Source: an uncultured Akkermansia sp. (lineage in GTDB: Bacteria > Verrucomicrobiota > Verrucomicrobiia > Verrucomicrobiales > Akkermansiaceae). From it: a stretch of DNA of 41,736 nt. The notes under the pieces are model-generated. The model saw nothing but the letters and a program-made list of their open reading frames with translations, had not been told where the DNA came from and did no database searches. The position numbers were made by a program, and so were the translations under genes. The stretch's first letter is position 1, and the number at the start of each line of letters is the position of its first letter. Shown in pieces: positions 7,460 to 25,699 of the stretch. The stretch is taken from contig CANRET010000012.1 in assembly GCA_947629715.1 (NCBI GenBank), positions 1-41,736 of the forward strand, written 5' to 3'.

Positions 7460-7474
7460 TATGCAGAGCGAGAG

Positions 7475-8050
7475 ATGAAAGTCATGGAGTTCATAAAGAA
7501 TGGGATGATAACCACGGAAGAGGTGACGCAACGGGGAATATCGCGTGGGCACTTATCCTATTTGGTCAAGAAGGGGGAACTGGAGCGACGGACACGCGGG
7601 CTCTACAATTTGCCGGATGCGTGGGAGGATGAGCTGTATGCCCAACAAGTCCGTTTTTCACGCGGCATATATGGATTACGGACTGCTCTTTACTTGTGGG
7701 ATTTGACCGATCGCACTCCTCAAAGCTACGAAATGTTCTTCCCTTTCGGCTACAATCTGACGGCTGTAAAAACTGCGGAGATTCTGTGTCACCAAATCAA
7801 GAGAGACTGGTATGAGGCAGACATTTGCACTTGCGCCACACCGAGCGGCAACACGGTGCGCGTCTATAGTCGTGAGCGAACCCTCTGTGATATCCTCCGC
7901 CCCGTCAACCACGTTGATAAACACACGATACACGAGGGCATCCGACGCTATCTTCTTTCATCTTCGCGCGACATTTCGTACCTCACCGAAACTGCCAATC
8001 GGCTGCGTGTCACCCCTAAGCTGCGTCCCTTCCTGGAAATTCTTTTATGA
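7475..8050 (+). CDS. abiEi: AbiEi-type antitoxin / transcriptional regulator
   Basis: This 191-residue protein matches type IV toxin-antitoxin antitoxins of the AbiEi family. An N-terminal winged helix (ITTEEVTQRGISRGHLSYLV, then RRTRGLYNLPD, residues about 11-48) is followed by the AbiEi domain (YGLRTALYLWDLTDRTP, and VRVYSRERTLCDILRP around residues 129-144). In this family the protein represses the operon and counteracts the AbiEii nucleotidyltransferase without needing direct contact. Its end overlaps the toxin start (ATGA at 8047-8050), the usual arrangement. A GAGAG precedes the ATG. The pair lies between two copies of a PLD gene end, suggesting it was inserted or left by rearrangement. 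Confidence 0.9.
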   Translation: MKVMEFIKNGMITTEEVTQRGISRGHLSYLVKKGELERRTRGLYNLPDAWEDELYAQQVRFSRGIYGLRTALYLWDLTDRTPQSYEMFFPFGYNLTAVKTAEILCHQIKRDWYEADICTCATPSGNTVRVYSRERTLCDILRPVNHVDKHTIHEGIRRYLLSSSRDISYLTETANRLRVTPKLRPFLEILL

Positions 8051-8877
8051 AAAATCCTATGCAACTAAAGGCGCGAATAAAAAAATTCGCTATGGAGAAG
8101 AAAACCCCTCCTCAAATTGTCATGCAGAACTATGTGATGGAGCGTTTTCTTGAACGAGTAGCGCACTCAAAGTATCGTGATGCTTTTGTCTTGAAAGGAG
8201 GTATGCTCATATCATCGATGATAGGGATTGAAGCCCGAACAACGCGCGATATTGACATGACTCTTGTAAACACACCTCTCTCTCACGCGAGGCTCCGTGA
8301 GGTGTTTTCAGAAATTGCTTCTATCAATATTCATGACAGCTTTGCCTTTGAAATCGTAGATTTGTCTGATATCCGAGAAAATGGGAAATACCCCGGAATA
8401 CGACTTTCACTAAAAGCCTACTATCCTCCCATCTCAGAGCGACTAAAGGTCGATATCACAGTTGGGGACAGAATGACCCCAAGTGCAATCGAATATGCTT
8501 ATCCATGTATGTTTGAAAACAAATCTATCAAAATACAGGCCTACAACATAGAGACCCTGCTGGCAGAAAAAATTGAGACCATACTTTCGCGTGGAATCTA
8601 TAATACTCGAGCATGGGATTTCTATGATGTTCACGTATTATCGCATCTGTATCAGTTGAATATTTCAGTACTAAAGGATGCCCTTATTGAGACTTTCAAG
8701 GCTCGCGGGACGCATGACTCTTTACTAAGAGCAGGAGAAATTATCAACGACATAACAAACGAGCCGGAAATGCAAAAATCATGGAAATCATACGTAATCG
8801 GAAACCAATTCGCATGCGATATACCGTGGGAGAACGTATGCTCCTCCGTAAGAGCTCTTCTCAGTGGGCTCTTGTGA
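8047..8877 (+). CDS. abiEii: AbiEii-type nucleotidyltransferase toxin
   Basis: This 276-residue protein is the toxin partner of AbiEi. Near the N-terminus it carries FVLKGGMLIS (residues 47-56) and EARTTRDIDMTL (62-73), the GG...RxTxDID signature of DNA-polymerase-beta-like nucleotidyltransferases, in which the Asp residues hold the metal ions. The later ETLLAEKIETILSRG and ARAWDFYDVH-like stretch (NTRAWDFYDVHVL) are also typical of the family. These toxins transfer nucleotides and stop growth, giving abortive infection on phage attack. It is translated from an ATG overlapping the AbiEi stop codon. No truncation is seen. The next 348 bp contain no gene. Confidence 0.9.
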   Translation: MKNPMQLKARIKKFAMEKKTPPQIVMQNYVMERFLERVAHSKYRDAFVLKGGMLISSMIGIEARTTRDIDMTLVNTPLSHARLREVFSEIASINIHDSFAFEIVDLSDIRENGKYPGIRLSLKAYYPPISERLKVDITVGDRMTPSAIEYAYPCMFENKSIKIQAYNIETLLAEKIETILSRGIYNTRAWDFYDVHVLSHLYQLNISVLKDALIETFKARGTHDSLLRAGEIINDITNEPEMQKSWKSYVIGNQFACDIPWENVCSSVRALLSGLL

Positions 8878-9225: not shown

Positions 9226-10224
9226 TTACGCGAGTAAGGAGTCTTCGCGGCGGTACACGCCCTCCATGGCGATGTAGCGCGTGCGCAGCAGCTCGGCAGA
9301 GCGGTGTCCCATTTCCAGCTGCAGCTCGGCATAGTTGCGGAAGGTTGCCAGGTGGTGCGTGGCAAAGGTGTGCCGCAACACGTCCGGCTGCCAACTCTTG
9401 AAGCCCGCCTCGCGGTGTAGTCGCGTCCAGAGGCGTCGCCAATTCGGCGGACAGATCCGTTCGTCCCCGGGGCGGCAGATGCACTGCAGGATGCGTGCCA
9501 GGGGCGGGAAGATGGTGACGTGCCGGGCACCACCGGTCTTGCTGTGGTGCGGGGCGATGCAGATAACGCCGTCGTCGAGTCGTATGTCGCTCCAGCGCAA
9601 CCGCTCCACTTCATTCGGGCGCACGCCGGCGTAGAGCATGATGGCGGTAGCGGCGAGGCAGGCGCCGCCCTCGAACTCCTCGGCGGTGTGCATTAACCGC
9701 CCGATTTCTTCCTTGTTCAGGATGCTGATACGCTTTTCTTCAATGCGTTCCGGCCCCACCTTGCGCACCGGGTTCTCCGCGCACCACCCCCGCTTGCACG
9801 CCGTGGAGAAGACCCCGCTGAGGATGAGCCTTGCCTTGTTCCTCTGACGTGGTGTGTCGAAAGCCTCTCGGATATAATCCCGACATTCCTCGGCGGAGAT
9901 GCTGCGCATGCGTCTGGTCGCCAGACCCTTGCAGCGTTTCATGAACCGCTTTGTGATGCCACGAAAGTCGCACAGCGTCCGTTTCCGTCGCTCTTTCCTC
10001 GCTTCCAGCGCTTCTTTCACCGCCCGGGCAAAGGTCACCGTCTTTTCACGCCGCCGCAGTTCTTCATCCCCCGTTTCAATGCACGCCATGGCGCGCTTCA
10101 CGCGTCCTCTCCCTGCTTCCAGCGCCCGCTTTGCCACCAACGCTGCTTCCAGCACATCCACCCCCGTCTGCCGCAGCACCTCTACTGCCGCCAGCTCCGT
10201 CTGTTTATTTGATTTCGTTTTCAT
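9226..10224 (-). CDS. Tyrosine recombinase / phage-type integrase, copy 2
   Basis: This 332-residue protein is a close paralogue of the integrase at 1032-2033 with the same domain order and catalytic set: Arg in YAGVRPNEVERLRW, Lys in HSKTGGARHV, DVLRHTFATHH, and GHRSAELLRTRY with the Tyr nucleophile. The frame extends to an ATG at 10332, but the shared MKTKS start at 10224 and the similar upstream DNA favour the shorter form. Differences from copy 1 are scattered (for instance RVRRPGN versus CICRPGD), so the copies are not a very recent duplication. Like copy 1 it is divergent from the defence operon on its right. The two copies could support homologous or site-specific loss of the DNA between them. 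Confidence 0.93.
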   Translation of the reverse strand: MKTKSNKQTELAAVEVLRQTGVDVLEAALVAKRALEAGRGRVKRAMACIETGDEELRRREKTVTFARAVKEALEARKERRKRTLCDFRGITKRFMKRCKGLATRRMRSISAEECRDYIREAFDTPRQRNKARLILSGVFSTACKRGWCAENPVRKVGPERIEEKRISILNKEEIGRLMHTAEEFEGGACLAATAIMLYAGVRPNEVERLRWSDIRLDDGVICIAPHHSKTGGARHVTIFPPLARILQCICRPGDERICPPNWRRLWTRLHREAGFKSWQPDVLRHTFATHHLATFRNYAELQLEMGHRSAELLRTRYIAMEGVYRREDSLLA

Positions 10225-10447
10225 AGTGATACGTATTTCAAATTCGCGTGCAAGCAAAAAATACGACAAGACAACAAATATTACCAGACCTGCATTGGAG
10301 AAGTACCCTTCGCGAGAAAGGGTAGCCCTCAAGGAGCGAAAGATGCACCATTTGCCTAAAATAAATCAACTGACAATCAATTAACAAGAATTAAAAAAAC
10401 ACGAATTTGAAAACCGTTAAACTCCCGCGGGGCATCGTGCCCTCATT

Positions 10448-13400
10448 ATGGACAATATTTTTCAATTCCACGAGGATCTTGTAGAAAAGTATAATGCTTT
10501 TTCTCAAGGATTTAACATTATCCGTGAAAAGGATATCCGGGATGTCGTTGACAAGTACATACAGAAAAAACGTAGGTTTTGTCCTGAGCCATTGGTCCAA
10601 CTCAATCTTAACTATAAGGAGGGAGCTAGCGTAAATGAGTTGGTTGAGCAAAACATCTTACACCCGGATTGCGGAAAGCTATTCGTAACAGGAAATCCGC
10701 CTAGATCTCTTAAACTTTATCAACATCAACAAGATGCGATTATTTATGCCAACGACAGGAAAAATTATGTAGTCACGACGGGGACAGGCTCCGGGAAATC
10801 CCTGACCTTTATCATCCCTATCATCAACGCGGTGCTGCGTTCCCGCGAAAAATCTCCCGCCCGCCGCACCAGAGCTATCATCATTTACCCCATGAACGCT
10901 CTGGCTAACAGCCAGGAAAAAGAGTTCACAAAGTACCTAGCAAATGCCCCTGATCTGGATATCACCGTTGGTCGCTATACAGGGCAGGAATCGGAGGGTG
11001 ATCGTAGAAAGTTTGCCGACAATCCCCCGGATATTCTGTTGACCAACTACATGATGCTGGAGTACCTGCTTACTCGAAGCGCGAAAGAAACAGATCGCAA
11101 GGTAATTGCCAACTGCCGCGACCTCGCTTTCCTTGCGCTGGACGAATTGCACACCTACCGTGGTCGCCAAGGCGCGGATGTTGCCCTGTTGGTGCGCCGA
11201 CTTCGCATCACGACCCATTCCGAGAACATGATTTGCGTGGGCACGTCCGCCACCATGTCAACCGATAAGGATCCAACTGTACGGAGAAAAGCTGTTGCCA
11301 ATGTGGCCACCAAGCTTTTCGGCGCTCCGTTCAGTAGCAAGCATATCATTGAGGAGTCTTTACTTCGCGTTACCAGTACGAGTGTGAGCGACGCTGATCT
11401 CCCCAAATTACTTAATGACTACCTCCATTCCGACTACAAGTTCGGTTGGCGGGAAAATGACCCCGCCTTACTCTCAAATCCTCTGGCAATATGGGTTGAG
11501 CGCAACATGGGCGTAAGGATGCAGAAACAAGGACTGGAACTTGAACGAGCCATCCCGAAAACGCTAAAAGAGCATGCTAAAAAATTGGCAAAAGATATCG
11601 GACTCAATGAGGAGGAGGCGCATAAGAAATCAGAGGAGTTTCATAAGAAATTGGAGGAGTTTCTTCAAGCTGCATGCAGCGTTCGTATCAACGACCGAAC
11701 ACCATTTGCGTTTAAATTACACCAGTTCATCAGCGGCCCCGGTTCAGTTTCGCTCTCACTGGAACCTCCCGGTCAGCGAACCATAACGCTGGAATCCCAA
11801 ACCTACATTCCCGGACGAACAGATAGAGCCCGACTCTTTACAGCCTATTTCTGTCGCGAGTGTGGTCAGGCTCACATACCGGCATGGTATGACCGGAAGG
11901 AAAAGCGCTACTCTCCGCGCTCGCTGGATGATACTGTCGTTGGAGATGAAGCTCTCAGCCAACTGGAGGCCTGCATCTTGACTCCCGTCTTCAGTGCTGA
12001 AGAGAAGCATGCCTTCGACCCTGAGGACCCGGAAACCTTACCTGAGGCGTGGCTTGAAGAGCGGCGCGGCGAAACGGTCGTTAAGCGTGACAAAAGGGCA
12101 CTCATTCCGCGTCAGGTTCAAGTGAACGTACGTGGCACCACGGTGGACGAAGAAAACGCTCCTTGCCACACTTTTTATCAAACGCACCACAAGTTCCCCT
12201 ACTGCGTACACTGCGGCAACGGGTTCGAAATACGGGGCAAAGTAGGCAATCGTATCTATGGGCTGTCGATCGAAGGCCGTTCATCTGCCTCCACAGTACT
12301 GATGCTCTCTGCGCTCAATCTCATGCAGGAAGAAATCCGTAATGCGAAGGATGAAAAACATCGTCAAGATTTACTAAAGGTGTACAAGATTCTCGGCTTC
12401 ACGGATAACCGACAAGACGCCGCCCTGCAAGCCGGGTTCTTTAATGACTTTGTGCACACAACCTTACTACGCGCTGCACTCATCCGCGCTCTATCGGGAG
12501 CGACGTCACCCATGGGCGAGACAGAACTTCTGGCCGCTCTGCAGAAAGCCTTGGGGGTGGATAAGGTGTTTGAATCCGGTAGTCAGACTCCATACAACCT
12601 CCGCGACTGCGTGCTAAATAACCCGGAGGCCAAGGGCGATGGATTGCGGAAAGCAGCCGATGCCATGCGCTTCTATCTGGGTTTCTCCCTTATCACGGAA
12701 CAGCGCTACGGCTGGAGACGCAATAATCCCAATCTGGAGCAGTTGGATGTCCTGCACATCAGCTATCAGGACATCGAGGACGTAGTCGAAGAGCCCGGCA
12801 TAGCGCAAGAGTTCCCCTTCTGGCTCAACCTTTCCTCCGCCAGCCGGGTGAGGATTCTGACCACGGTATTCGATGCCATGCGCAGCAAGCTCTGTATCAG
12901 TTGCGATTACCTTGACCACACTAAGCAGAGCGATTATCTGACAGCTTTGAGTCGTTGCCTCATGCCGCTCTGGACACTCCCGAAGGAGCGCCTGTCCGTT
13001 GGTAGGTTCAAGGGCAACCACCTCTCATTCAGCCAGGAAAAGAAAGATAAGTTCGACTCCAAGACCCAGAGGAGCGTTTCACTCTCCCCGTCGTCCGGCA
13101 TGGCGAAGGAATTGAGGAAGTGTCTGGATGGTACCGCCGACGCGGATTTCTGGAAAGGAAACTTCCAGAAGCGAGACTACTCGGCCCTTGTGTTCTGTAT
13201 CCTGGAAGAGGCAAAAAAATACGGCATTGTGGAGAAGAGACCCGATGATACGTGGGTTCTCAATTCCGGGGCCATGCGGTGGAGTGTTTCCGAACCATCT
13301 GATAAGGCACTTAAGGAGAATTCTTTTTTCTACAAATTATACCAGCAGATGGCAAAGCTGCTGGGCAACCCTGACCACGGACTGTTCGGACTTGAAGCAC

Positions 13401-15739
13401 AGGAGCACACTGCGCAGGTGGACAGCGACAGCCGCGAGAAGCTTGAAGACCGCTTCCGCAATGATCCTCCAAAAGAGGAGCGGCTGCCTCTTCCTCTCCT
13501 GTTCTGCTCCCCCACGATGGAACTGGGCGTGGATATCTCTTCGCTGGATATTGTCTATATGCGCAATGTCCCGCCCACCCCTGCCAACTATGCCCAGCGA
13601 GCCGGGCGAGCCGGGCGCTCCGGGCGCGCGGCTCTGGCGTTGACCTACTGTGCTGCTGCCAGCCCCCATGACCAGTGGTTCTTTGACAAGCAGAACGAGA
13701 TGGTCAGCGGCACCGTGAACCCTCCGGCGCTTGACCTCTCCAACCGCGATATGGTGGAAAGTCATATCCGCGCCATCTGGCTTCATGCGGCGGAGTACCA
13801 ACTTGCCGGGTCCATCGTTGGGATTTTGGATATATCCAGGGACAAATATCCGGTTCGCGAAGAGGTACGCGACACGCTTTGCGCCCCTATGGTGATAGAA
13901 AAGGCCTTGCCGGTAGCTCAGAAACTTATGGAATCACTGCTGCAAGGTAACAATCATATCCCCAAAGGCGAGGAATACGAGTGGGCTCGAGACCCGCTTT
14001 TCTGCCGAAATTGTCTGGAATCCGCATGGGACTTGTTCGATAGAGCCTTTGACAACTGGCGCGAACTTGTCTCTTCCACCAATCATCAGATAGAAGCCTG
14101 CAACAAAATCGTGCAGGACATGGCCGGGTCCACTCAGGCAGAAAAGGATGCCGCCAATCAGAGACGCGATGAAGCTTACAAGCAAAGGAGTTTACTGACC
14201 AGTGAGAACAACACCGCCAACAATGAGTTCTACTCGTATCGCTATTTGGCCAACCAAGGCTTCATGCCGGGATACGACTTTCCACGCCTGCCGCTGCTGG
14301 CTTGGCTCCCCGGCAAAAGCGGAGAGTCTGATTTCCTGCGCCCGTTGACTCGTCCGCGTTTTCTTGCCTTGTCCGAGTTTGGTCCTCTGAGTCTCATCTA
14401 TCATCAGGGGAGCATCTACGAGGTACACAAAATCAAGCTGGCTGCACAGGACAATCAGGTGGGACAAAAACTACCCACCCGAAGGATTCAGGTGTGCTCA
14501 CATTGCGGTCATTCTTACTTCGTTCCCACAGATGGAACGCCTCGCGATGTCTGCGAACACTGTCACTCGGAATTGACCCGGGATAACTCCATCCATAACC
14601 TCTATAAGGTGGAGACCGTGGAGACCCGTCGTAAGGAGCAAATCAACGCCATGATGGAAGAACGGCAGCGACAGGGCTATGATCTCCAAACGTGCTACCG
14701 CTTTGCAGCAAGCAGCAATGGCACGCTGAGCTTCTCCGAGAGGAAAATCAACCGGAAAGATTCCGAGGACAAATCGTTGGGTTCCTTTACCTATGGTCCC
14801 TCCGCTACCTTGTGGCGTGTCAATAAGGGATGGCGACGCCGGGCCGATGCTAACACCTTTGGCTTCAATATCAATCCCACTACCGGGCAATGGTCCTCCG
14901 ATGAAGAGACAAATCCCGAATTTGTGGACGACGATGCCAAAAAGAAGGAGAAGCCGCACCATGTGCAGCGCATCGTTCCTTATGTGGAAGACTGCCGCAA
15001 CATCCTGATATACCAGCTCCCCGTCGCTTTGCAGCATGAGGAAGCTGCCGCCACTTTGCAATCAGCACTGGCTGTAGGTATCGTGCGCACGTTCCAGACA
15101 GAAAGCTCCGAAATCATCGTCGAGGCCCTGCCGGACAGAGCCCACCGACAGAGTCTGCTACTCTACGAGGCCTCTGAGGGAGGAGCCGGCGTCCTCCATC
15201 AGCTCGTGGAATCGCACGAGCGACTCCAACAGGTGGCAGCCAATGCTCTGCAAGCCATGCACTATGAACTCCGGGATGGCGAATGGGTGGATTCTCATCG
15301 GGGAAAGTCGGAATCAGAGCGCTGCGTATGCGCCTGTTACCACTGTTTGCTCTCTTATCGCAACCAGCCGGACCACGAGAAAATCAACCGCGCCAATCCT
15401 GAAGTGCTAACCTTGCTGAAAGTACTGGCCAAGGGGGACTTCCAAATCTCTGCTCCTTCTCCAAAAGGAGTGCCTGAGGTCGACGGAGCGCCTGAGGCCG
15501 ACGGAATTCAAGAGCTTCTGATTCAAGCCGGGCTACCTCCTGCTGATGAGATTGAAAAGGAGCTTCCCGGAGGAGTCATCGCGGCAGCTTTTTATGCCAA
15601 ACCGTCTCTTGCTCTTCTGAGCGATCAATATATTAGGTCTTCTGATTTACTATTACAACAATCTGGGATCATCTGTCTGCCCTTGCCGACAGAGTGGTCG
15701 GACGACGATATTGCCAACATTTCAAAATACCTCTCCTAA
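10448..15739 (+). CDS. DEAD/DEAH helicase with DUF1998 domain (fused DrmA-DrmB-like)
   Basis: This 1763-residue protein has an N-terminal superfamily 2 helicase with Walker A TGTGSGKS (about 109-116), ALDELHTYRG (DEAH-type box II, about 230), CVGTSATMS (motif III, about 263), MELGVDISSLD (motif V) and QRAGRAGRSGR (motif VI, about 1048). Cys pairs CRECG (about 469), CVHCG (about 586) and CSHCG...CEHCH (about 1350-1376) look like zinc ribbons. The C-terminal DUF1998 domain has YEASEGGAGVLHQL (about 1574) and CVCACYHCLLSYRN (about 1626). DISARM splits these functions into DrmA (helicase) and DrmB (DUF1998); here they appear fused. The layout also resembles Druantia DruE and MrfA/YprA, but the SNF2 helicase and Eco57I methylase downstream favour DISARM. 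It ends in TAATG shared with the next start. Two in-frame tandem repeats are present (11621, 15467). Confidence 0.85.
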   Translation: MDNIFQFHEDLVEKYNAFSQGFNIIREKDIRDVVDKYIQKKRRFCPEPLVQLNLNYKEGASVNELVEQNILHPDCGKLFVTGNPPRSLKLYQHQQDAIIYANDRKNYVVTTGTGSGKSLTFIIPIINAVLRSREKSPARRTRAIIIYPMNALANSQEKEFTKYLANAPDLDITVGRYTGQESEGDRRKFADNPPDILLTNYMMLEYLLTRSAKETDRKVIANCRDLAFLALDELHTYRGRQGADVALLVRRLRITTHSENMICVGTSATMSTDKDPTVRRKAVANVATKLFGAPFSSKHIIEESLLRVTSTSVSDADLPKLLNDYLHSDYKFGWRENDPALLSNPLAIWVERNMGVRMQKQGLELERAIPKTLKEHAKKLAKDIGLNEEEAHKKSEEFHKKLEEFLQAACSVRINDRTPFAFKLHQFISGPGSVSLSLEPPGQRTITLESQTYIPGRTDRARLFTAYFCRECGQAHIPAWYDRKEKRYSPRSLDDTVVGDEALSQLEACILTPVFSAEEKHAFDPEDPETLPEAWLEERRGETVVKRDKRALIPRQVQVNVRGTTVDEENAPCHTFYQTHHKFPYCVHCGNGFEIRGKVGNRIYGLSIEGRSSASTVLMLSALNLMQEEIRNAKDEKHRQDLLKVYKILGFTDNRQDAALQAGFFNDFVHTTLLRAALIRALSGATSPMGETELLAALQKALGVDKVFESGSQTPYNLRDCVLNNPEAKGDGLRKAADAMRFYLGFSLITEQRYGWRRNNPNLEQLDVLHISYQDIEDVVEEPGIAQEFPFWLNLSSASRVRILTTVFDAMRSKLCISCDYLDHTKQSDYLTALSRCLMPLWTLPKERLSVGRFKGNHLSFSQEKKDKFDSKTQRSVSLSPSSGMAKELRKCLDGTADADFWKGNFQKRDYSALVFCILEEAKKYGIVEKRPDDTWVLNSGAMRWSVSEPSDKALKENSFFYKLYQQMAKLLGNPDHGLFGLEAQEHTAQVDSDSREKLEDRFRNDPPKEERLPLPLLFCSPTMELGVDISSLDIVYMRNVPPTPANYAQRAGRAGRSGRAALALTYCAAASPHDQWFFDKQNEMVSGTVNPPALDLSNRDMVESHIRAIWLHAAEYQLAGSIVGILDISRDKYPVREEVRDTLCAPMVIEKALPVAQKLMESLLQGNNHIPKGEEYEWARDPLFCRNCLESAWDLFDRAFDNWRELVSSTNHQIEACNKIVQDMAGSTQAEKDAANQRRDEAYKQRSLLTSENNTANNEFYSYRYLANQGFMPGYDFPRLPLLAWLPGKSGESDFLRPLTRPRFLALSEFGPLSLIYHQGSIYEVHKIKLAAQDNQVGQKLPTRRIQVCSHCGHSYFVPTDGTPRDVCEHCHSELTRDNSIHNLYKVETVETRRKEQINAMMEERQRQGYDLQTCYRFAASSNGTLSFSERKINRKDSEDKSLGSFTYGPSATLWRVNKGWRRRADANTFGFNINPTTGQWSSDEETNPEFVDDDAKKKEKPHHVQRIVPYVEDCRNILIYQLPVALQHEEAAATLQSALAVGIVRTFQTESSEIIVEALPDRAHRQSLLLYEASEGGAGVLHQLVESHERLQQVAANALQAMHYELRDGEWVDSHRGKSESERCVCACYHCLLSYRNQPDHEKINRANPEVLTLLKVLAKGDFQISAPSPKGVPEVDGAPEADGIQELLIQAGLPPADEIEKELPGGVIAAAFYAKPSLALLSDQYIRSSDLLLQQSGIICLPLPTEWSDDDIANISKYLS
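11621..11662 (+). repeat. 21-bp tandem duplication inside the helicase gene
   Basis: Two adjacent copies of CATAAGAAAN-CAGAGGAGTTT-like sequence encode HKKSEEF and HKKLEEF in a charged helical segment (about residues 392-405). It keeps the frame, so copy number could change without disrupting the protein. Confidence 0.8.
15467..15505 (+). repeat. 18-bp in-frame tandem repeat in the C-terminal linker
   Basis: GGAGTGCCTGAGGTCGAC is followed by GGAGCGCCTGAGGCCGAC and a further GGA, encoding GVPEVD-GAPEAD-G. It lies in the flexible linker between the DUF1998 Cys cluster and the last ~75 residues of the protein. Confidence 0.75.
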
Positions 15740-18528
15740 TGCCTGCTCTCAACTACACTCCCGGTTCTCTCATCCACGCCCGTGGCCGCGATTGGGTCAT
15801 TGAAAGCGACTCCTCACCGGAGCTGCTGCACCTGCGCCCACTTGCCGGTTCTGCTACCGAATCCTGCTGGCTTATCCCGGCTTTGGAACAGGAGGAGGAT
15901 GCCCCGGCTTCTGCCGTATTCCCTCCTCCCTCACCGGATCACCGTGGCAACCGTAACGAACTGAGATTGCTGCAGAACGCCATGCGTATGCGTATGCGTT
16001 CCGGTGCCGGTCCTTTTCGTTCCTTCGGCAATATCGCCGTGCAGCCCCGCACCTACCAGCTGGTACCCTTGCTCATGGCACTTCGTCAGCAGGTCATTCG
16101 CTTGTTGATAGCGGATGATGTGGGTATCGGTAAAACCATCGAGGCAGGGCTTATCGTGCGCGAACTGCTCGACCGTGGAGAAATCAGCCGTTTCTCTGTT
16201 CTTTGTCCGCCCAATCTGGCAGAACAGTGGCGCGAAGAATTGCAAACCCACTTCAATATCCGAGCGGTAGTCATCACTTCTTCCAGCATCACCCGACTTG
16301 AAAAACAGGTCCCTCCCGGTCTCTCTATCTTCGAGTACCACCCCTATACCATCATCAGTCTGGACTACATCAAGAGCGACCGCCACCGCGCCACCTTCTT
16401 GAACAAGGCCCCGGAATGCATCGTGGTGGACGAGGCCCACACCTGCACCTCCGTCACCGCCCGCAACCACCAGCGATACGACCTGCTGCGCACGCTGGCA
16501 GATGATGAGAAGCGCCACATACTTATGCTCACGGCTACGCCGCATTCCGGCATTGAGGAGGGATTCTACCATTTGCTGGGTCTGCTGGACCGTAAGTTCG
16601 AAGTCATGGGTGAGGTCGATCAGCGTCGGCGTAATTCCCTGCGCGAGGCTCTATCCCGCCATCTGGTCCAGCGTCGCCGCAAAGATATCCAACGCCTCTG
16701 GAAAGAGCAGGACGTGCTCCCTGAGAAGGAGACCGTGGAAATGACCTACCGCCTTACCGGACCATGGGGTGATTTCTTCGAAGAAGTACGCCAATACTGT
16801 TTGCACGAGGCTCAGTCGACCAATAATCGCATGATTTGGTACGCCATGCTGGCCATGTTGCGTTGTATCTCATCCAGTCCGGCCTCCGCCGTGTCCGCTC
16901 TGGAGGCTAAACTGCGCGGCGAGTTCCCGCCGGAATCGGAGGAGGAGTACACCTCCCACCTTGCAGACCCTTCCGATAACGACTCAGAGGACGACATCGA
17001 ACCGCCCGCTCCGGAGATAGGGCGCATCGAGGAATTATTGCGCAAAGCTCAGGATCTGAAACAGACCGCAGAGGATCCCAAGCTCGACAAGTTGCGCGTA
17101 GCAGTCAAGGCACTCCTCAAGGACAACTACCACCCCATCATCTTTTGTCAGTATATCAGCACAGCGGAATATGTGGCGGAAGCGCTGCAAAAGGCCTTCC
17201 CCAAGTATGCAATCCGTGCTATCACCGGCAAATTGTCTCCCGCAGAGCGTGCGGAAGGAGCGCAACTACTTATTGAACAGGAGAAGCGCATCCTTGTGGC
17301 TACCAACTGTCTCTCCGAAGGTATCAACCTGCAGAACGGCTTTGATGCCGTGGTGCACTACGATCTGGCATGGAACCCCACACGCCACGAACAGCGAGAG
17401 GGCCGCGTGGATCGATTCGGGCAGAAGAAAAAAGTGGTTCGCAGTCTCATGCTCTACGGGCAAGATAATCCTGTGGATGGTTTTATCCTCAAAGTCATCT
17501 TACGCAAGGCTGAAACCATCAGCAACGAGCTCGGTGTGCGCGTACCCGTTCCGGTGGACGAGAAGAAGACCGGCGAGGCCTTGGTGCACGCTTTGCTGCT
17601 CAACGATGAGAAACCGGCGGAAGCTCTCACTGAGCAAATGGTCCTCGATTTCGATGATTACAACATGCTCGATATCGCATGGAAAGATGCCTCTGCTGCC
17701 GATAAGACCCGCGTCACCACCTTTGCTCAACAGGCCTTGCAGCCCTCCGATGTCATGCCGGAGTATGAACGCATGGAAGAGCTTCTGGGTACCAAGGACG
17801 AACTGCGTCACTTCCTGCTGGAAACCTGCCATCGCTTCAAAGCACCACTAGAACCTCTGGCTCTGGAGGAAGATGCCTACAGCCTGCGCCTGTCCAACCT
17901 GCCGAAGGAGCTGGCTCGCCGCTTAATGGAGAACGGCATCCATGGCGACAAGAAAAACGCCTACCGTTTCAGCTTGCGCCCGGCCGGGTCGGAGCTGCCC
18001 TCGGTGTCTCGTGCGCATCCACTTGTTTCCACTATTGCGGACTATTTGGCAGAGTTGTCGCTGGACTCTCAGCCGGGCGAGTTTTCTCTCCCTCGCTGCG
18101 CTGTGGTACGCGTGAAGGATGCTGCCGTTCAGCAGCTCACCACGCTGTACAATCTGCGACTGCGTCACAATCTTACCTTCAGTAACGAGGGCCGCAACCG
18201 CCACTTCATGGCTGAGGAGCTGGTGACCCTCATTCGCGTAGGTTCCCTGCCGCTCCGCTTCGCCTCCGGAGTGGAACAACGGTTCTTCACGACACTGGCC
18301 CCGCAGGATAATGTGCCGGAAGCGGTGGCCAAGGTACAGCTCACCCAGGCTCTGAACCAGTGGCAGCATCTCCCAGTCGATGAGCTGCTGCAACAGCGTG
18401 CCAACGATCTGCTGCAGGACCATCTACGCGTGCGAGAGGCTGCTCGTCAGCGCTACGGCTCCGTCTCGGTCTCCTGCTGTACCCCGCCGGACCTTCTTTC
18501 CATTCTTATCTGTCAACCCGTTATCTGA
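15739..18528 (+). CDS. SNF2-family helicase (DrmD-like)
   Basis: This 929-residue SWI2/SNF2 ATPase resembles the HepA/RapA group and DISARM DrmD. It has the Walker A variant IADDVGIGKTIEAGLI (about 123-138), CIVVDEAHT (about 226-234), LMLTATPHSG (about 262) and, in the second RecA-like lobe, NCLSEGINLQNG and REGRVDRFGQ (about 550-560). Such enzymes translocate on double-stranded DNA; in DISARM, DrmD belongs to class 1 systems. The start was set at the ATG at 15739 because it shares TAATG with the upstream stop. A GTG at 15694 would give 15 extra residues with no support. An acidic insert (DPSDNDSEDDIEPPAPE, about 411-427) sits between the lobes. The next gene starts 8 nt after its stop. Confidence 0.9.
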   Translation: MPALNYTPGSLIHARGRDWVIESDSSPELLHLRPLAGSATESCWLIPALEQEEDAPASAVFPPPSPDHRGNRNELRLLQNAMRMRMRSGAGPFRSFGNIAVQPRTYQLVPLLMALRQQVIRLLIADDVGIGKTIEAGLIVRELLDRGEISRFSVLCPPNLAEQWREELQTHFNIRAVVITSSSITRLEKQVPPGLSIFEYHPYTIISLDYIKSDRHRATFLNKAPECIVVDEAHTCTSVTARNHQRYDLLRTLADDEKRHILMLTATPHSGIEEGFYHLLGLLDRKFEVMGEVDQRRRNSLREALSRHLVQRRRKDIQRLWKEQDVLPEKETVEMTYRLTGPWGDFFEEVRQYCLHEAQSTNNRMIWYAMLAMLRCISSSPASAVSALEAKLRGEFPPESEEEYTSHLADPSDNDSEDDIEPPAPEIGRIEELLRKAQDLKQTAEDPKLDKLRVAVKALLKDNYHPIIFCQYISTAEYVAEALQKAFPKYAIRAITGKLSPAERAEGAQLLIEQEKRILVATNCLSEGINLQNGFDAVVHYDLAWNPTRHEQREGRVDRFGQKKKVVRSLMLYGQDNPVDGFILKVILRKAETISNELGVRVPVPVDEKKTGEALVHALLLNDEKPAEALTEQMVLDFDDYNMLDIAWKDASAADKTRVTTFAQQALQPSDVMPEYERMEELLGTKDELRHFLLETCHRFKAPLEPLALEEDAYSLRLSNLPKELARRLMENGIHGDKKNAYRFSLRPAGSELPSVSRAHPLVSTIADYLAELSLDSQPGEFSLPRCAVVRVKDAAVQQLTTLYNLRLRHNLTFSNEGRNRHFMAEELVTLIRVGSLPLRFASGVEQRFFTTLAPQDNVPEAVAKVQLTQALNQWQHLPVDELLQQRANDLLQDHLRVREAARQRYGSVSVSCCTPPDLLSILICQPVI

Positions 18529-18536
18529 ACACTTCC

Positions 18537-21500
18537 ATGAGTATCTCCCGTTATTGTAAACACTATAATTTGCTGTTTTCGCCGGACCTCGTACAGCGTG
18601 TGTACGAGCGACAGCCTAAGTATGCCGTTCAGGTGGATAAAGGACTTTCCGTGCGCGATGAGGCGCAGCGGGCCTACCGTCTCGCACGTGCCGCCTGGCA
18701 CACGTGGCAGGCGGACGTTACCGAGACGCATCAGCGGCAATACATTTGCCATATTCTGGAAAAGGTACTAGGCTACTCCCACATGACGGAATGCCCCACC
18801 GGCGGCATCGCCCCGGAGGTGAAGGACACGCAGGATCTGTTCGGCCCCATTTTTAAGACCGATACAGACCCCGGAATGCACCTGTTTCCGATTTCTCTGC
18901 TATTGGGCGCCGGTACCAACAGTCCCGTGCTGCCGGTCATCATTGCCCCGGCAGATAAATCGCTGGATGACAAGATACGATTTGCCACCGGACAGCACCT
19001 CTCTGCTACTCAGATGATGCAGGCTTTCCTCAATGCGTCTGAATACTTTACGTGGGCTATCGTCACCAATGGCTGCAACTGGCGCTTGCTGCGCGACAAT
19101 CCCGCGCTCTCTCGCCCCTGTTATCTGGATATTGACCTTGACCGCCTGCTGGAGGATGAGGACAGCACCGCTTTCGATGGCCTTTTCTGGAACATATTGC
19201 ACGTTTCCCGCGCTGCCCGTCAGATTTCGGACAACGGCGAGACTTGTGTCTGGGAGTCATGGCGGCAGGATTTAGAGGAACACGGAACCCGCGCCCGCGA
19301 CGGTCTGCGCGAGGGTGTGGAAAATGCCATCTGCCAGTTGGGTACCGGTTTCCTGCAAGGGCACGGCTCAGGCAATGATGCCCTGAGAGCGGCCCTGCAA
19401 GATGGGACTCTCACCACACAAGCCTTCTATCAGGAGCTCATGCGCACGGTGTACCGCCTCATCTTCCTCACGGTACTGGAGAGTCGCAATATCCTGCACG
19501 AATACGACAAAACGCTCAAGGAACAGGCTATGCTCTACCACCGGGGCTACTCTATTTCTCGTCTCATTAAGCGGATGCTGAGAGAGGAAGCCGATTCCCG
19601 CCATGATGACCTCTGGCAGGCTCAGCTCATCGTCTTTCGCTCTCTGGCGAAGGATGGCGGCGAACCCGCGCTGGCCCTGCCCGCGCTGGGCGGTCTGTAC
19701 GATGCTCACCAATGCCAACTGCTGGATGCCTGCCGCCTGCCGAACAGTGCTTTCCTTGCGGCGCTGCGTTCCCTGTGCTGGACGAATACCGAGGGCAAGC
19801 GCACGCAGGTGGATTATGCTCACCTCGGCGCGGAGGAGCTGGGCTCCGTCTATGAAAGCCTGCTGGAGCTTACGCCCCGTATCTCCACCGAGCGGCAGAT
19901 TTTCTACTTCACAGGTGGCAGCTCCGACCCGGAAAAGGCCGCCAAAAAGCAGAAGGGCAATGCCCGCAAGCTCACCGGCTCCTACTATACTCCCACCTGT
20001 CTGGTAGAACAGGTGCTTAAGACCTCGCTCGACCCGCTGCTGGAGGACTGTTGCAAAAACCCCGTCTATGCGCAGCAGAAACTGCTCGCCCTGCGCGTCA
20101 TTGACCCCGCTTGCGGCTCCGGTCATTTCCTGCTGGGCGCTGCCCGCCGCATTGCGGAGAGGCTGGCAGATGCCCGTACCCCCGGTCAGATGGGCGGCGC
20201 TACACCTGATGTCTTCCACAGAGCCATGCACGAGGTTATCCGCCACTGCATTTACGGCGTGGACATCAACCCCATGGCGGTGGAGCTTGTGCGCATGAAT
20301 CTGTGGTTGGAAGGCTACGAGCCCGGCAAACCTCTCTCCTTCCTGGATGACCACTTGCGCTGCGGCGATTCCCTGCTGGGTCTTTTATCCGCAGAGACAT
20401 TCATGCAATTCCCCATACCCGGCGAGGCGTTCAAGCCCGCGCCTGGAGATGATAAGGCCGTCTGCAAGCAGCTGAAAAGCCAAAATCGGCAGAGTGCGCG
20501 CAATTACAGCAAATCGACTCACACGCTGGAGGAAGCTGCCGACCTCAAGGAACTTGAATCTGCGTATTCTGAAAACTCGCCTTCAGAGGTGCGTCAATAC
20601 GCCGGGCAATGGCAGGAAGTCATGCAGCAGCGCAATGCATCCAAACAGGCCGTGGCTGCCGATATCTGGTTGGGCGCTTTCCTCGTCCCCAAAAACAGCT
20701 CAAATAATGTGCCGACAACGGCGACCCTCAACAATTTTCGCAGCAATCCGTCCATAGCCGATGGCGATCCCGCCATACAAGCCGCTCGCCACGCCTGCCG
20801 CTCCGCCAATGCCTTCCACTGGTTCCTTGAGTTTCCGGAGGTGATGAAGAACGGCGGCTTTGATTGTGTGCTCGGCAACCCACCGTGGGAGAGGGTGAAG
20901 ATTCAGGAAAAGGAATGGTTTGCGAATACCTGTCCGAAAATTGCCGAATGCTCCAATACGAACACCCGGCGTCGCATGATTGAAGCCCTTTCAAAAGGGG
21001 AGCTTCCAGCCATGAATCCGGAGGCTCAAATTACGCTCTTTTCCCGTTTTCAAAATTCCCTGCGCGTCACGGCTGCTTCAAGCGCCTTCGTCCATATCGC
21101 CGGAGATCAAGGCGGCCGTTTTGCCCTCACAGGCGTCGGAGATGTCAATATGTTCGCTCTTTTTGCTGAGACCGCTTACCGCCTACGCAAAGACTCCGGC
21201 AGGATTGGTATCATCATTCCCACCAACATCATTACTGATATAAGCACTCATGTCTTCTTCAACCATCTCATCAGCAACAAACAGCTCCATGCAGTCTATG
21301 ATTTTAGAAATAATGAACTTTTCCCAAATGTTTGCAAAAATTATAAGTTTGCAATCTTATCCATAACCCCCTATTCTACCATAACTGACATTGCCTGCTA
21401 CATGACACACCCACGGCAACTGGATGAAAAAGAGCGCCATGTCCATGTGCAAGGAGAAGATTTGGCGCGTTTCAATCCCAACACAGGCACTTGCCCGCTA

Positions 21501-22469
21501 TTCCGCTGCGGCGCGGATGCTGAGCTGACGACGAAAATCTACCGCTCCGTTCCCATTCTCTGCAATGAGAAAACAGGGGAGAACTCGTGGGATGTATCAT
21601 TCGGTACCATGTTGCACATGTCCAACGACAGCCACCTCTTCCACGAAACAAGGGAAGAGGGGATGCTGCCGCTGTACGAGGGGAAGATGATTCACCACTA
21701 CGACCACCGCTTCAACACCTTCGAAACCACCGGAGGAAATGCGAAAGAAAACGAAGTAACCGCCGAGCAAAAACGCAACCCTCGTTTCGAACCCTCACCT
21801 CGCTACTGGGTGTACCGCGAGGATGTTCTGCGCAAGCTCCCGAAGTGTTGCAAGCAAGTCCCCGAGTGGTTGATCGGGTTCCGAGATATTACCAATGCCA
21901 CGAATGAGCGAACGTTTATCGTATCGTTTATACCATTTTCTGCGGTTGGACATACTATGCCAATCATTTTTTCAAAAGAACCACTAGGAAAGCAATGTGC
22001 ATTTGTTGCAAATGGCGCTTCTCTTGTTTTCGATTATATCGTCAGACAAAAATTAAGTGGTGTCCACATGACGTATTTCTACGTTGAGCAGCTTCCCTTT
22101 TTGCCACCGACCGCCTACAACAAACAGGATCTAGCATACATCAGTCAACGGGTGTTGGAACTGACGTACACCACCTACAGCATGCAGCCGTTGGCAAAGG
22201 CGTTGGGCTATGAGGGCGAACCGTTTGCATGGGACGAGGAGCGACGGTCTGAGCTGAAGGCCGAGCTGGATGCGTACTACGCAAAGTTGTATGGACTGAC
22301 GCGGGAAGAGTTGGCGTATATCCTCGATCCGACGGTGAAGTACCCTGGGAAATGCCCGACTGTGACATTCCCCGGCTTGCGCGCTAAAGAGGAGAGGAAG
22401 TACGGGGAATACCGAACGCAGCGGTTGGTGCTGGCCGCCTTCGACAACCTGAGTCAACAGGGAAAATAG
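18537..22469 (+). CDS. Eco57I-type N6-adenine DNA methyltransferase (DrmMI-like)
   Basis: This 1310-residue protein is a large class I SAM-dependent methyltransferase that would put N6-methyladenine on the host's own DNA. YYTPTCLVEQVLK (about 483-495) leads into motif I, VIDPACGSGHFLLGAARR (about 520-537). GVDINPMAVELVRMNLW holds the acidic SAM contact and CVLGNPPWER (about 777-786) is the catalytic NPPW. The remaining C-terminal half should contain the target recognition domain. Two AT-rich patches there (about 21295-21375 and 21900-22085) contrast with the GC-rich rest, suggesting exchange of specificity segments. I see no PD-(D/E)XK endonuclease motif in the N-terminal ~470 residues, so cleavage would have to come from partner proteins. 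Size and context match DISARM class 1 DrmMI; PglX of BREX is a related alternative, but no BREX partners are here. Confidence 0.9.
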   Translation: MSISRYCKHYNLLFSPDLVQRVYERQPKYAVQVDKGLSVRDEAQRAYRLARAAWHTWQADVTETHQRQYICHILEKVLGYSHMTECPTGGIAPEVKDTQDLFGPIFKTDTDPGMHLFPISLLLGAGTNSPVLPVIIAPADKSLDDKIRFATGQHLSATQMMQAFLNASEYFTWAIVTNGCNWRLLRDNPALSRPCYLDIDLDRLLEDEDSTAFDGLFWNILHVSRAARQISDNGETCVWESWRQDLEEHGTRARDGLREGVENAICQLGTGFLQGHGSGNDALRAALQDGTLTTQAFYQELMRTVYRLIFLTVLESRNILHEYDKTLKEQAMLYHRGYSISRLIKRMLREEADSRHDDLWQAQLIVFRSLAKDGGEPALALPALGGLYDAHQCQLLDACRLPNSAFLAALRSLCWTNTEGKRTQVDYAHLGAEELGSVYESLLELTPRISTERQIFYFTGGSSDPEKAAKKQKGNARKLTGSYYTPTCLVEQVLKTSLDPLLEDCCKNPVYAQQKLLALRVIDPACGSGHFLLGAARRIAERLADARTPGQMGGATPDVFHRAMHEVIRHCIYGVDINPMAVELVRMNLWLEGYEPGKPLSFLDDHLRCGDSLLGLLSAETFMQFPIPGEAFKPAPGDDKAVCKQLKSQNRQSARNYSKSTHTLEEAADLKELESAYSENSPSEVRQYAGQWQEVMQQRNASKQAVAADIWLGAFLVPKNSSNNVPTTATLNNFRSNPSIADGDPAIQAARHACRSANAFHWFLEFPEVMKNGGFDCVLGNPPWERVKIQEKEWFANTCPKIAECSNTNTRRRMIEALSKGELPAMNPEAQITLFSRFQNSLRVTAASSAFVHIAGDQGGRFALTGVGDVNMFALFAETAYRLRKDSGRIGIIIPTNIITDISTHVFFNHLISNKQLHAVYDFRNNELFPNVCKNYKFAILSITPYSTITDIACYMTHPRQLDEKERHVHVQGEDLARFNPNTGTCPLFRCGADAELTTKIYRSVPILCNEKTGENSWDVSFGTMLHMSNDSHLFHETREEGMLPLYEGKMIHHYDHRFNTFETTGGNAKENEVTAEQKRNPRFEPSPRYWVYREDVLRKLPKCCKQVPEWLIGFRDITNATNERTFIVSFIPFSAVGHTMPIIFSKEPLGKQCAFVANGASLVFDYIVRQKLSGVHMTYFYVEQLPFLPPTAYNKQDLAYISQRVLELTYTTYSMQPLAKALGYEGEPFAWDEERRSELKAELDAYYAKLYGLTREELAYILDPTVKYPGKCPTVTFPGLRAKEERKYGEYRTQRLVLAAFDNLSQQGK

Positions 22470-22484
22470 GAGGGAAAGCAGAAC

Positions 22485-23207
22485 ATGGACTCGATAGCCT
22501 TCGACACCTATCTCCGCACCGCTGCCTCGCGCAACGGCTGGGAGGTTTGCGAAAAAGACACGGACGGCGATGGATACCGGCTGAGCTCGACGGCGCACGA
22601 AGGGCTGCTGCACGTGCTGCAGGAAGGGGAGAAATTTTGCATCATCCCTGCCATGGCGGAGGTGCAGGTGGTGACACGGGAGGAGCTGGGGAAGACATTG
22701 CGGGAGCTGGTGAAAACCGATACCTCCCCCAAGGGCACGCCGCCCCTGCGCACGGAGCGCGAACAGATGATTCTGGCTCGCACTGCACAGCACCGCTACC
22801 GCAACGGGCTGGAAGCCCTATGGGGCGGCAGATGCGCCTGCACGGGCGTCGGCGTGGCGGAGCTGCTGCGCGCTAGCCATGCCAAGCCATGGAAAGACTG
22901 CACGGATGCCGAGAGGGTGGATCCATACAACGGCTTTTTGCTCGAAGCGCGCTACGATGCTCTGTTTGACCAGGGATATATCTCCTTCACCGATGAAGGC
23001 GAGCTCCTTATCTCCCCGAAACTGGCTGCGGCAGAGAGGCAAAAACTCGGACTCTTGCCGGGCCTGCATATCCACGGGCTTTCCCCTCGGCACCTTCCGT
23101 ATTTACACTGGCACCGAGAACACGTGTTTCTGGGGGCTGAAGGAAAAGAGGGTCTGGTCAATTTCGCTGGAGGAGTAATAGATTTGGCGTGTTTTAAGAA
23201 CAGATAG
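22485..23207 (+). CDS. HNH_2-family endonuclease
   Basis: This 240-residue protein has an uncharacterised N-terminal domain (about 1-85) and a C-terminal HNH_2 nuclease. The key residues are in CACTGVGVAELLRASHAKPW (Cys117, His132) and RVDPYNGFLLEARYDALFD (Asn149, Asp158, Asp162). HNH_2 proteins of this layout are frequent next to methyltransferases in restriction loci. Here it directly follows the Eco57I-type methylase (15 bp gap, AGGAGG at 22469-22474) and could be the cutting component. DISARM operons normally end with a PLD protein, DrmC, so this is a departure. The final residues (LACFKNR) lie where a decayed ISL3 transposase begins on the other strand, so the native C-terminus may have been altered. 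Confidence 0.87.
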   Translation: MDSIAFDTYLRTAASRNGWEVCEKDTDGDGYRLSSTAHEGLLHVLQEGEKFCIIPAMAEVQVVTREELGKTLRELVKTDTSPKGTPPLRTEREQMILARTAQHRYRNGLEALWGGRCACTGVGVAELLRASHAKPWKDCTDAERVDPYNGFLLEARYDALFDQGYISFTDEGELLISPKLAAAERQKLGLLPGLHIHGLSPRHLPYLHWHREHVFLGAEGKEGLVNFAGGVIDLACFKNR

Positions 23208-23931
23208 TTAATGTTATAGATGCCGCAGCATTTGCTTTGTATGCGTTTGATACCAGCATTAAGGGATTTTATCTTGGCTGAGTTAATTTTGTGACGAATG
23301 CCGTTGAGCACTTCTTTGAAACAGCAACTGATGCCACGTGCAAAGTTGATGAGGGGCTTTACTTATGATTGGGCCGCCATGGATATCCAACGTATAAGAC
23401 TCAATGAAGCCTCATTCTCACTGTCTTGCATGAAGACAGCACGAAACTGCTCTCTCATGGTGTAAACCTTATAAGGAGGGATGTTGTAGCAAAGCAGTTC
23501 AAGTTATCGCTTGCCGTCTTGATCAAGTTTGTCGGGAGCTTTGAGCAGGATGTAGCGCATCCCTGTAGCTTAGACGCTTCATCTCCTTCTCTGAAGAGAG
23601 AGAGTCGCGTTTTATCCACAACTTTGTTCATGTTGCTCGCAAGGTGGAAAGCATCAAAACAGACGATGCGGGAGATATTCTAATGCTATGGCTCGATAAG
23701 TATTGGAGCGATCACAATAGTTGGCAAATCCAAAACGTTAATGACTTTCTTGGTATGCAAACAAGGGGGACTCCCGCAGCGCGGACAATTAAAAGTCAGT
23801 TCTGAATTAACGTGCAGCTTGACAAGTACACCCTCATCGCACAAAATAGGCTCATCGGCACTCCAACCACAGCATTCATAAAGTGATTTGATCATAACAC
23901 TATTCTGCAACGAGTGTTGCAGAGAATGCAA
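23200..23931 (-). pseudogene. Decayed ISL3-family transposase
   Basis: On the minus strand, broken frames spell a transposase in order. First comes an N-terminal zinc-finger part with FNCPRCGSPP and INVLDLPTI (from 23931), stopped at 23686. A piece with RIVCFDAFHLASNMNKVVDK follows (about 23675-23600), which carries the ISL3 DDE-type Asp. A third piece is MREQFRAVFMQDSENE (about 23457), and the last is INSAKIKSLNAGIKRIQSKC followed by CGIYNINYLFL (to about 23200). Stops and frameshifts separate them, so it is not functional. The 3' end touches the end of the HNH gene. Terminal inverted repeats were not found. It marks an old insertion at the right flank of the DISARM-like operon. Confidence 0.8.
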
Positions 23932-24037
23932 GGCTGAAGTGCCGATTTTTTATCTTATCCCTTTAGTATCTGTCTCAGCGAATCTGCCGGAAACAAAAAA
24001 ATCACCAAAAGAAAAACCATACAAACCAATCAACAAC

Positions 24038-25699
24038 ATGAAAAATAGCAGAAAAGATGAAGACAATTCCATCGAATGGAAACCGGTGGGGGAATGGGGA
24101 GATATGTTGCCGCCCTCATACGAAAAGACGAGGCAGCTGGTGCAAAGCATTTGGAAAGGTCAAGCCACGGTCGAATCGGTGGATTCACTGCTCCAAGATG
24201 GAGCGGAGATAGAAGAAGACGTCTTCTTCTACAAAATCGGTTCGGACGGAGAAAGAATCCGCCTGGGAGGAAACGCCCTCATCGCAGCTGCCATGCGAGG
24301 AGACGCGAATATGGTTCGTCACCTGCTCTCCCTTGGCGCCGACCCCAATTCAAAAACGCGATTGGACTATTACACACCGCTCTCCGCTGCAGCCGGCAGC
24401 AAGGACATGGAGACGCTGAGGTTGCTGCTGGAGGCGGGTGCAAAAACGACCCGCAATGGCGCATCGCCGCTGGTGGAAGCCGCGAAAGTCGGTTGGCAGG
24501 AGGGTGTGCAGTGTCTGTTGGAGAGTGGGGCCGACGCGAACGAGGAGGGGCTGTGGAAGACGGATCCCTCGTCGCCGGAGGAGGAAGTATTACCCCTCAT
24601 CTGCGCTGTCCATAGCGGGAACATCGCGGTGGTGGATCAGCTGCTCGATGCCGGAGCACAACTTGACCCGGAAGAGGACGAGTCCATGGACTCTGCGCTT
24701 ACACAAGCCGTCCGGGATGGAAACCGCGAGATGGTAACCCACTTGCTGGAGCGGGGAGCGTCTCTTGAGGAGAGTCACACCTGGTGGAATCCTCCACTCG
24801 CGGAAGCCATTAAATGCCAAGATGCCGCGATGGTACGCTTGCTGCTGGAGTCCGGCGCGAGCGTAGAGAAGTATTTCACCGAACCATTTGCCGATTTCAG
24901 AACCACGCCACTCTGTGTTGCCGCGATGAACGAAGCGGAGGAAGTGGTTCGCACACTGATTGCCGCCGGAGCGCAGGTGAACGACCCCACGCCCCGTCAC
25001 ACTCCCTTGGAAATTGCCGCTTCAGAGGGAGATGTGAACATGGTGCGTCTCCTTCATGAATTGGGGGCGGATGTGAATGCTCCTTTACCCGAGGATTTCC
25101 CTCCCGGCTACACGGTCCTGATGGGGGCGGCTACAAGTGGTGTTCCCGAGGTCGTGAAACTGCTGCTGGATGCCGGGGCGGATGTCAATGCCCATCTCAA
25201 AGACCGATTTAACGCTCTTGAGATGGCGCCCTCGTACGGTCATTTGGGTATCGCGCGGCTGTTGATTGAGGCGGGAGCGGAGCCGCGTCCGGCTGACACA
25301 GAGTATTCCCCGCTTCGGGCAGCTGCGCGCGCTCAACATTTCCACCCCGAACTCCTGCGCCTCCTGCTCACCTATTACCCGGATGTGCGCACGGCTCCCC
25401 ATGTCCACAACGCCTTAGTGGGATCCGTCGATGATCGCCTTACCGATGCGACCGAAATTCTCCTCGCTGCCGGGGCGGATCCGAATGCCGTCGGTGAATC
25501 ATATTATGATGGAGAGGGACTCATCACCCCTCTCATGGCTGCTATTTCCAACGACAGTCTGCCGGTCATCCGACGGCTTCTTGCCGCCGGGGCAGACCCC
25601 AACAAGGCGGTCAATGGTAAGAATGCTCTGGATTACGCTTTATCAGACAATCCCAAACCGTGCGTGGTGCGCCTTCTCCGCATCGCCGGCGCTCATTAG
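24038..25699 (+). CDS. Ankyrin-repeat protein
   Basis: This 553-residue protein is built almost wholly of ankyrin repeats. About 14 units are visible from residue ~75 on, for example NALIAAAMRGDANMVRHLLS, TPLEIAASEGDVNMVRLLHE and TPLMAAISNDSLPVIRRLLA, most ending GADxN or GAxxx. Several units are longer or degenerate (the one near 25330-25400 ends LLLTYYPDV). Ankyrin stacks bind other proteins; the partner is unknown. There is no signal peptide or membrane segment, so it should be cytoplasmic. The frame is open back to 23888, but that part overlaps the transposase remnant, so the ATG at 24038 (MKNSRKDED) is preferred; it has no Shine-Dalgarno. It stands alone between the island and the convergent housekeeping operon. 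It may be an accessory gene of the island. Confidence 0.88.
   Translation: MKNSRKDEDNSIEWKPVGEWGDMLPPSYEKTRQLVQSIWKGQATVESVDSLLQDGAEIEEDVFFYKIGSDGERIRLGGNALIAAAMRGDANMVRHLLSLGADPNSKTRLDYYTPLSAAAGSKDMETLRLLLEAGAKTTRNGASPLVEAAKVGWQEGVQCLLESGADANEEGLWKTDPSSPEEEVLPLICAVHSGNIAVVDQLLDAGAQLDPEEDESMDSALTQAVRDGNREMVTHLLERGASLEESHTWWNPPLAEAIKCQDAAMVRLLLESGASVEKYFTEPFADFRTTPLCVAAMNEAEEVVRTLIAAGAQVNDPTPRHTPLEIAASEGDVNMVRLLHELGADVNAPLPEDFPPGYTVLMGAATSGVPEVVKLLLDAGADVNAHLKDRFNALEMAPSYGHLGIARLLIEAGAEPRPADTEYSPLRAAARAQHFHPELLRLLLTYYPDVRTAPHVHNALVGSVDDRLTDATEILLAAGADPNAVGESYYDGEGLITPLMAAISNDSLPVIRRLLAAGADPNKAVNGKNALDYALSDNPKPCVVRLLRIAGAH

Follow-up and report, generated by a model that had tools for sequence, protein, structure and literature searches.

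ARMADA Type I systems consist of a YprA-like helicase, a BrxHII-like helicase and a PglX-like methylase, encoded in that order, and their YprA-like helicase, with OB-CON-DUF1998 in one chain and a BrxA-like insert after RecA1, is closest to DruE (Bell et al. 2025 preprint, PMC12458937). The helicases of both ARMADA Types I and II have at their C-terminus a Vsr nuclease predicted to be active, and helicases of the same lineage in Druantia Types I and II carry an inactivated C-terminal Vsr (PMC12458937). YprA-family helicases ordinarily consist of one chain, the split found in DISARM being the exception (PMC12458937). Anti-phage activity of ARMADA has been shown only for a four-gene Type II system from E. 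coli, which stops phages while the cell survives and which requires each of its genes (PMC12458937). In the DUF499-centered, BREX-related Type 1 (Hma) systems, nearby nucleases, including HNH enzymes, have been proposed to compensate for the helicase-fused nuclease where it is missing (PMC12839542).

We analyzed a stretch of 41,736 nucleotides (the window) from the 2.2 Mb genome of a gut Akkermansia, in which ORF calls placed four intact and tightly packed genes on the + strand at positions 10448-23207. The first gene (10448..15739, +) encodes a YprA/DruE-like SF2 helicase of 1763 residues that resembles ArmC, with DEAD (residues 92-272), Helicase_C and MZB/DUF1998 (residues 1538-1634) domains in Pfam scans. 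The second (15739..18528, +) encodes a SNF2/RapA-like helicase related to BrxHII, DrmD and DpdE and resembling ArmA, with SNF2 and Helicase_C domains; its 929 residues are counted from the ATG at 15739, while the mechanically called ORF begins at a GTG at 15694. These are followed by a gene for an ArmB-like N6-adenine DNA methyltransferase of the Eco57I/PglX kind (18537..22469, +; 1310 residues; Pfam Eco57I/N6_Mtase, with 84 bits for Eco57I) and by one for an HNH_2 endonuclease of 240 residues (22485..23207, +; Pfam HNH_2). The domain assignments in all four genes exceeded the Pfam cut-offs, and the catalytic motifs are intact in the helicase (GTGSGKS, DELH), the SNF2 protein (DDVGIGKT, DEAH), the methylase (DPACGSG, NPPW) and the HNH protein (ASH/NG/DALFD). 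The initial annotation had described four packed genes, and the ORF coordinates confirmed this: the helicase and SNF2 genes share a TAATG stop/start overlap, and gaps of 8 bp and 15 bp separate the SNF2 gene from the methylase gene and the methylase gene from the HNH gene, respectively. Since the helicase-SNF2-methylase trio was found together in nearly all related loci with enough flanking sequence, and a second Akkermansia MAG contains the whole four-gene unit with 94.5% identity at the DNA level, the operon is not a chance arrangement. Operons of the ARMADA type were present in only 2 of 76 Akkermansia species genomes.

We then compared the individual proteins with curated profiles. The gene order is that of ARMADA Type I, and the one-chain, DruE-like helicase with its MZB domain agrees with that type as well. 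Helicase homologues of 30-45% identity head ARMADA-I-type loci, and the trio occurs in Verrucomicrobiota genomes and on plasmids of Pseudomonadota, Campylobacterota, Deinococcota, Actinomycetota and Chloroflexota. The methylase resembles DrmMI (PADLOC, 276 bits) and type IIG enzymes. We consider it likely that the operon is a variant of ARMADA Type I with a nuclease acting in trans, carried on an integrase-headed mobile unit; membership in Type I is predicted from gene order, profile scores and architecture, and the tree that we built covers this helicase's own relatives.

Three other assignments were weighed against these scores. The initial annotation had proposed a distinct DISARM subtype, or a related undescribed system, with DrmA and DrmB in one chain and an HNH nuclease in the place of the PLD gene (drmC), and it had named profile scores as the check. 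By that check the DISARM label fell, as the helicase scored best against DruE (320 bits with PADLOC DruE1, compared with 60 bits for DrmA) and reached only 18 bits with the NCBIfam DrmA model, whose cut-off is 999. The helicase and DUF1998 regions do lie in one chain, but this chain is not a DrmA/DrmB fusion: its MZB/DUF1998 zinc-binding domain (15059..15349, +) gave the only MZB match in the whole genome, so there is no separate DrmB. A DISARM subtype of this kind is thus very improbable even though the SNF2 gene is a homologue of DrmD and the methylase gene one of DrmMI, and the DISARM scores all fell below curated cut-offs (for the SNF2 protein, 259 bits with PADLOC DrmD and 297 with NCBIfam DrmD, cut-off 610). 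What held of that proposal is a DISARM-related, presumably defensive operon that standard libraries leave unlabeled; no ARMADA model scored on the operon in PADLOC-DB v2.0.0. A system derived from Dpd is hardly plausible. It would account for the 566 bits, over the whole length, that the SNF2 protein scored with the PADLOC DpdE model PDLC02853, but the NCBIfam DpdE model gave 200 bits, under its cut-off of 500, and no Dpd component was found among the neighboring proteins scanned. Moreover, the same SNF2 family is present at every ARMADA-I locus with enough flank, and PDLC02853 therefore probably includes ARMADA proteins. We give next to no credence to a Druantia-like helicase that came by chance to lie beside restriction genes: DruE is indeed the best helicase model, but the order of the trio is conserved across phyla, which rules this out, and no Druantia partner genes (DruH and others) were found among the neighbors scanned, genes 2 and 3 being the SNF2 and methylase genes.

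The operon departs from a standard Type I member at the end of its helicase. Residues ~1664-1763 (15437..15736, +) form a decayed Vsr-type nuclease domain, as judged from alignments, hhalign and a structural model. In the alignments, the Vsr motifs PD...Y, DG and PHD were missing from the window helicase, and about 10 residues were deleted; the catalytic motifs were likewise absent from its nearest relatives and present in more distant ones. By hhalign, the decayed branch that includes the window matched the intact Vsr profile with a probability of 98.9 (E 3e-17), and a second, mainly alphaproteobacterial decayed branch matched it with a probability of 76 (E 2e-5). Pfam scans of two intact members returned a clear DUF559 match with a weak Vsr match for one and weak matches only for the other, and scans of two decayed members returned none. 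The model of the window domain was of moderate confidence (pLDDT 69). Its best structural match was the catalytic domain of I-Bth0305I, a homing nuclease that we take to be a Vsr relative (Z 7.5, rmsd 2.5, 78 residues aligned), followed by NGO0050 (Z 7.1, rmsd 2.8, 79 aligned), Z scores of such size not being decisive alone. Because the Vsr fold is kept but its catalytic motifs are lost, we file the operon as a variant of ARMADA Type I and not as a standard member.

The HNH protein encoded at the end of the operon consists of an N-terminal alpha/beta domain (residues 1-84) and a VcaM4I-like HNH domain. A profile search matched it to the VcaM4I structure (PDB 6yex) with an E of 9e-37; the match was confined to the HNH domain, and the EVE reader of VcaM4I lay outside it. 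In a model with a mean pLDDT of 81, residues 85-219 superposed on VcaM4I with Z 16.9 and rmsd 3.4 over 132 aligned residues at 34% identity. H132, N149, D158 and D162, invariant in an alignment of 18-19 HNH homologues, are the equivalents of the VcaM4I active-site residues H224, N241, D250 and D254, for which H224A, D250A and D254A drastically impaired cleavage (PMC7897488). Residues 1-84 gave middling matches to unrelated folds, such as a subunit of Mediator (Z 8.8, rmsd 2.5, 79 aligned), from which we drew no inference. We suspect that this N-terminal domain docks the nuclease.

We further investigated how the HNH gene is distributed with respect to the state of the Vsr domain. A scan with the single helicase gave one close relative, its patterns having been taken from variable peptides, and the sample was widened by genome searches and plasmids to 51 related loci from Verrucomicrobiota genomes and from plasmids of several phyla. 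A profile of the HNH gene was run on all loci, and then on whole genomes where the stretches were short; the HNH genes of G091, G088, G235, G571 and G408 were seen on longer stretches or by genome search, and their early absences were windowing artifacts. A homologous HNH gene was present downstream at 23 of 27 loci with a decayed Vsr domain and at 0 of 24 loci with an intact one, although some of the latter genomes hold HNH-domain matches elsewhere that are not of the full-length type. The decayed loci with HNH comprise the window and further genomic loci (L025/G338, G091, G088, G235, G163, G196, G571, G408, G484 and G763), together with plasmids of Acidithiobacillus, Acinetobacter, Mesorhizobium (AR02 and AR07), Croceicoccus, Sphingomonas, Paracoccus, Rhizobium (two), Agrobacterium, Methylorubrum and Hydrogenimonas. 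At the four decayed loci lacking a linked HNH gene, the contig stops right after the methylase gene (G204; G763, of the same genus, has the HNH gene), the methylase is truncated (G593), an IS21 element follows the methylase gene and a second plasmid carries an HNH homologue (Kozakia), or the helicase is truncated (Mesorhizobium loti 582). The three loci from genomes first searched after the pattern had been seen all fit it, G763 being decayed with HNH and G758 and G705 intact without. Within the Verrucomicrobiae sample, the strongest HNH matches (E below 1e-30) came only from genomes with decayed-Vsr ARMADA loci, with the exception of Akkermansia G137. Fisher's test on 23/4 versus 0/24 gives p 1e-10, but the loci share one ancestry, and we therefore do not use this value as a measure of significance.

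These data bear out the earlier proposal that the HNH gene is a real and recurrent component, which the absence of HNH_2 from related loci would have contradicted. The idea of a nuclease substitution also stood, with the correction that the part that gave way is the C-terminal Vsr domain of the helicase itself and not a PLD gene; the PLD gene of the window (6859-7362) lies upstream, in another cassette, and not after the operon. One locus with a half-decayed domain, on a Candidatus Chlorohelix plasmid (L099), was left out of the counts. Its Vsr domain has kept PDF and lost DG, its helicase falls outside the main decayed clade, and no HNH gene was found in the stretch read; this is possibly a second loss of Vsr.

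In a tree of the helicase from which the C-terminus had been left out, the decayed rows fell as one clade inside the intact rows, plus L099, for a total of 2 changes. As the decayed rows form one clade, this amounts to one loss and one gain that were long retained rather than many independent events. An independent-pairs test comprised 2 pairs, which is too few, with p 1. The decay of Vsr and the gain of HNH are thus essentially one evolutionary swap. The identity matrices of the HNH protein and the helicase were correlated (Mantel r 0.89 without near copies, compared with a permutation maximum of about 0.6), and this value lies between those of the core genes with the helicase, 0.76 for the methylase and 0.98 for the SNF2 protein. 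Such co-divergence supports a working HNH-helicase partnership. In an HNH tree built on 128 columns, the ARMADA HNHs clustered, but not as one clade, and the family also occurs outside ARMADA, including a 60% identical gene in Akkermansia G137. In Akkermansia genomes other than that of the window, HNH homologues (L073, L074, L076, L077 and L078; 60-64% identical) were seen without the ARMADA operon, one of them frameshifted and others short N-terminal remnants.

It is nevertheless conceivable that genes 1 to 3 make up an ARMADA Type I system with its nuclease absent or encoded elsewhere, and that the HNH gene serves restriction independently of them and simply rides the same mobile unit. HNH relatives do stand alone or beside other restriction genes, as on a P. 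aeruginosa plasmid where one adjoins a methylase and an S subunit. The spacing between methylase and HNH genes also varies, often amounting to one to three genes and once to about 32 kb. We consider this explanation unlikely, however, because the HNH gene is linked to decayed and never to intact Vsr loci, diverges together with the helicase across phyla, and follows the methylase gene by just 15 bp in the window. In G235, moreover, the HNH gene and an SMC-like gene are still on the same strand despite about 30 kb of largely opposite-strand genes between, an apparent insertion. Taken together, we lean, with some reserve, toward a distinct ARMADA I subtype, present in at least Verrucomicrobiota, Pseudomonadota and Campylobacterota, in which Vsr was inactivated once, a VcaM4I-like HNH nuclease replaced it and has since co-evolved with the helicase, and the dead Vsr domain may serve as a docking or regulatory part.

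The mobile unit is headed by a tyrosine integrase (9226..10332, -; Pfam Phage_integrase). Another Akkermansia MAG carries the DNA of positions 9238-23163, the integrase included, at 94.5% identity, and since the similarity stops at both edges, the HNH gene forms the distal end of the mobile unit. A second tyrosine integrase (1032-2033, -) has 89% protein identity to the first. Each integrase adjoins a different + strand defense cassette, in what looks like two elements of the same family side by side. The upstream cassette (2193-8877) encodes two GmrSD-N (DUF262) proteins, an AbiEi/AbiEii toxin-antitoxin pair and a small PLD protein whose DrmC-like scores are weak. Just past the operon lies a gene for a 603-residue ankyrin-repeat protein (23888-25699; PADLOC PDC-M72A, 172 bits). 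We note that a gene for an SMC-like/DUF2326 protein of about 650-690 residues recurs after the methylase gene (L083, L090-L092, L094, L031, L117, L102), at ARMADA I loci with intact or decayed Vsr, and could be an accessory gene.

As to mechanism, the methylase would mark host DNA as self, and the SNF2 translocase and YprA helicase would locate invading DNA that lacks the mark, load onto it and unwind it. The HNH nuclease may be recruited to this putative complex, perhaps via its own N-terminal domain or the decayed Vsr domain, and would do the cutting for which other ARMADA systems have their fused Vsr. Since protection by the E. coli Type II system is non-abortive and depends on each of its four genes, direct restriction of DNA is expected if the operon indeed acts in defense.

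A dead fused nuclease accompanied by a substitute suggests that the system depends on having a nuclease rather than on one specific nuclease, and the natural branch described here would separate sensing and translocation from cutting. In practical terms, a decayed Vsr together with an HNH gene could be an annotation marker for loci that PADLOC-DB v2.0.0 would split among DruE, DpdE and DrmMI; with the full-length match of PDLC02853 to the SNF2 protein, PADLOC may call dpdE in ARMADA loci.

Several of these elements were already known, namely ARMADA I (from a preprint), the proposed compensation by other nucleases, HNH enzymes included, in the unrelated DUF499-centered systems and the inactive Vsr of Druantia I/II. 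The main text of PMC12458937 makes no mention of HNH in ARMADA, and a literature search, with subscription papers and supplements outside its scope, found no description of an HNH-bearing ARMADA. We considered whether the Type-1 BR systems of PMC12839542 might be ARMADA I and rejected this; they are built around a DUF499 ATPase and have no YprA helicase. Druantia Types I/II have other partner genes and no SNF2/methylase pair of such kind. DISARM Class 1 shares a DrmD-like SNF2 helicase and a DrmMI-like methylase with our operon, but has a split DrmA/DrmB and a DrmC, neither of which is found here, where an HNH gene takes the following position. VcaM4I, an EVE-HNH modification-dependent nuclease (PMC7897488), has the HNH domain and the H/N/D/D active-site residues in common with the fourth protein, whereas its modification-reading EVE domain is unmatched here and a different small N-terminal domain is present. 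ARMADA Type II shares the three homologous genes, a total of four genes and carriage as mobile-element cargo, but its order is SNF2-methylase-YprA and its fourth gene encodes a GajB-like helicase with a RelE-like domain instead of an HNH nuclease. Closest is ARMADA Type I, with the same gene order, a DruE-like helicase and carriage on integrase elements; it differs in that its Vsr is predicted to be active, whereas here the motifs are lost and an HNH gene follows.
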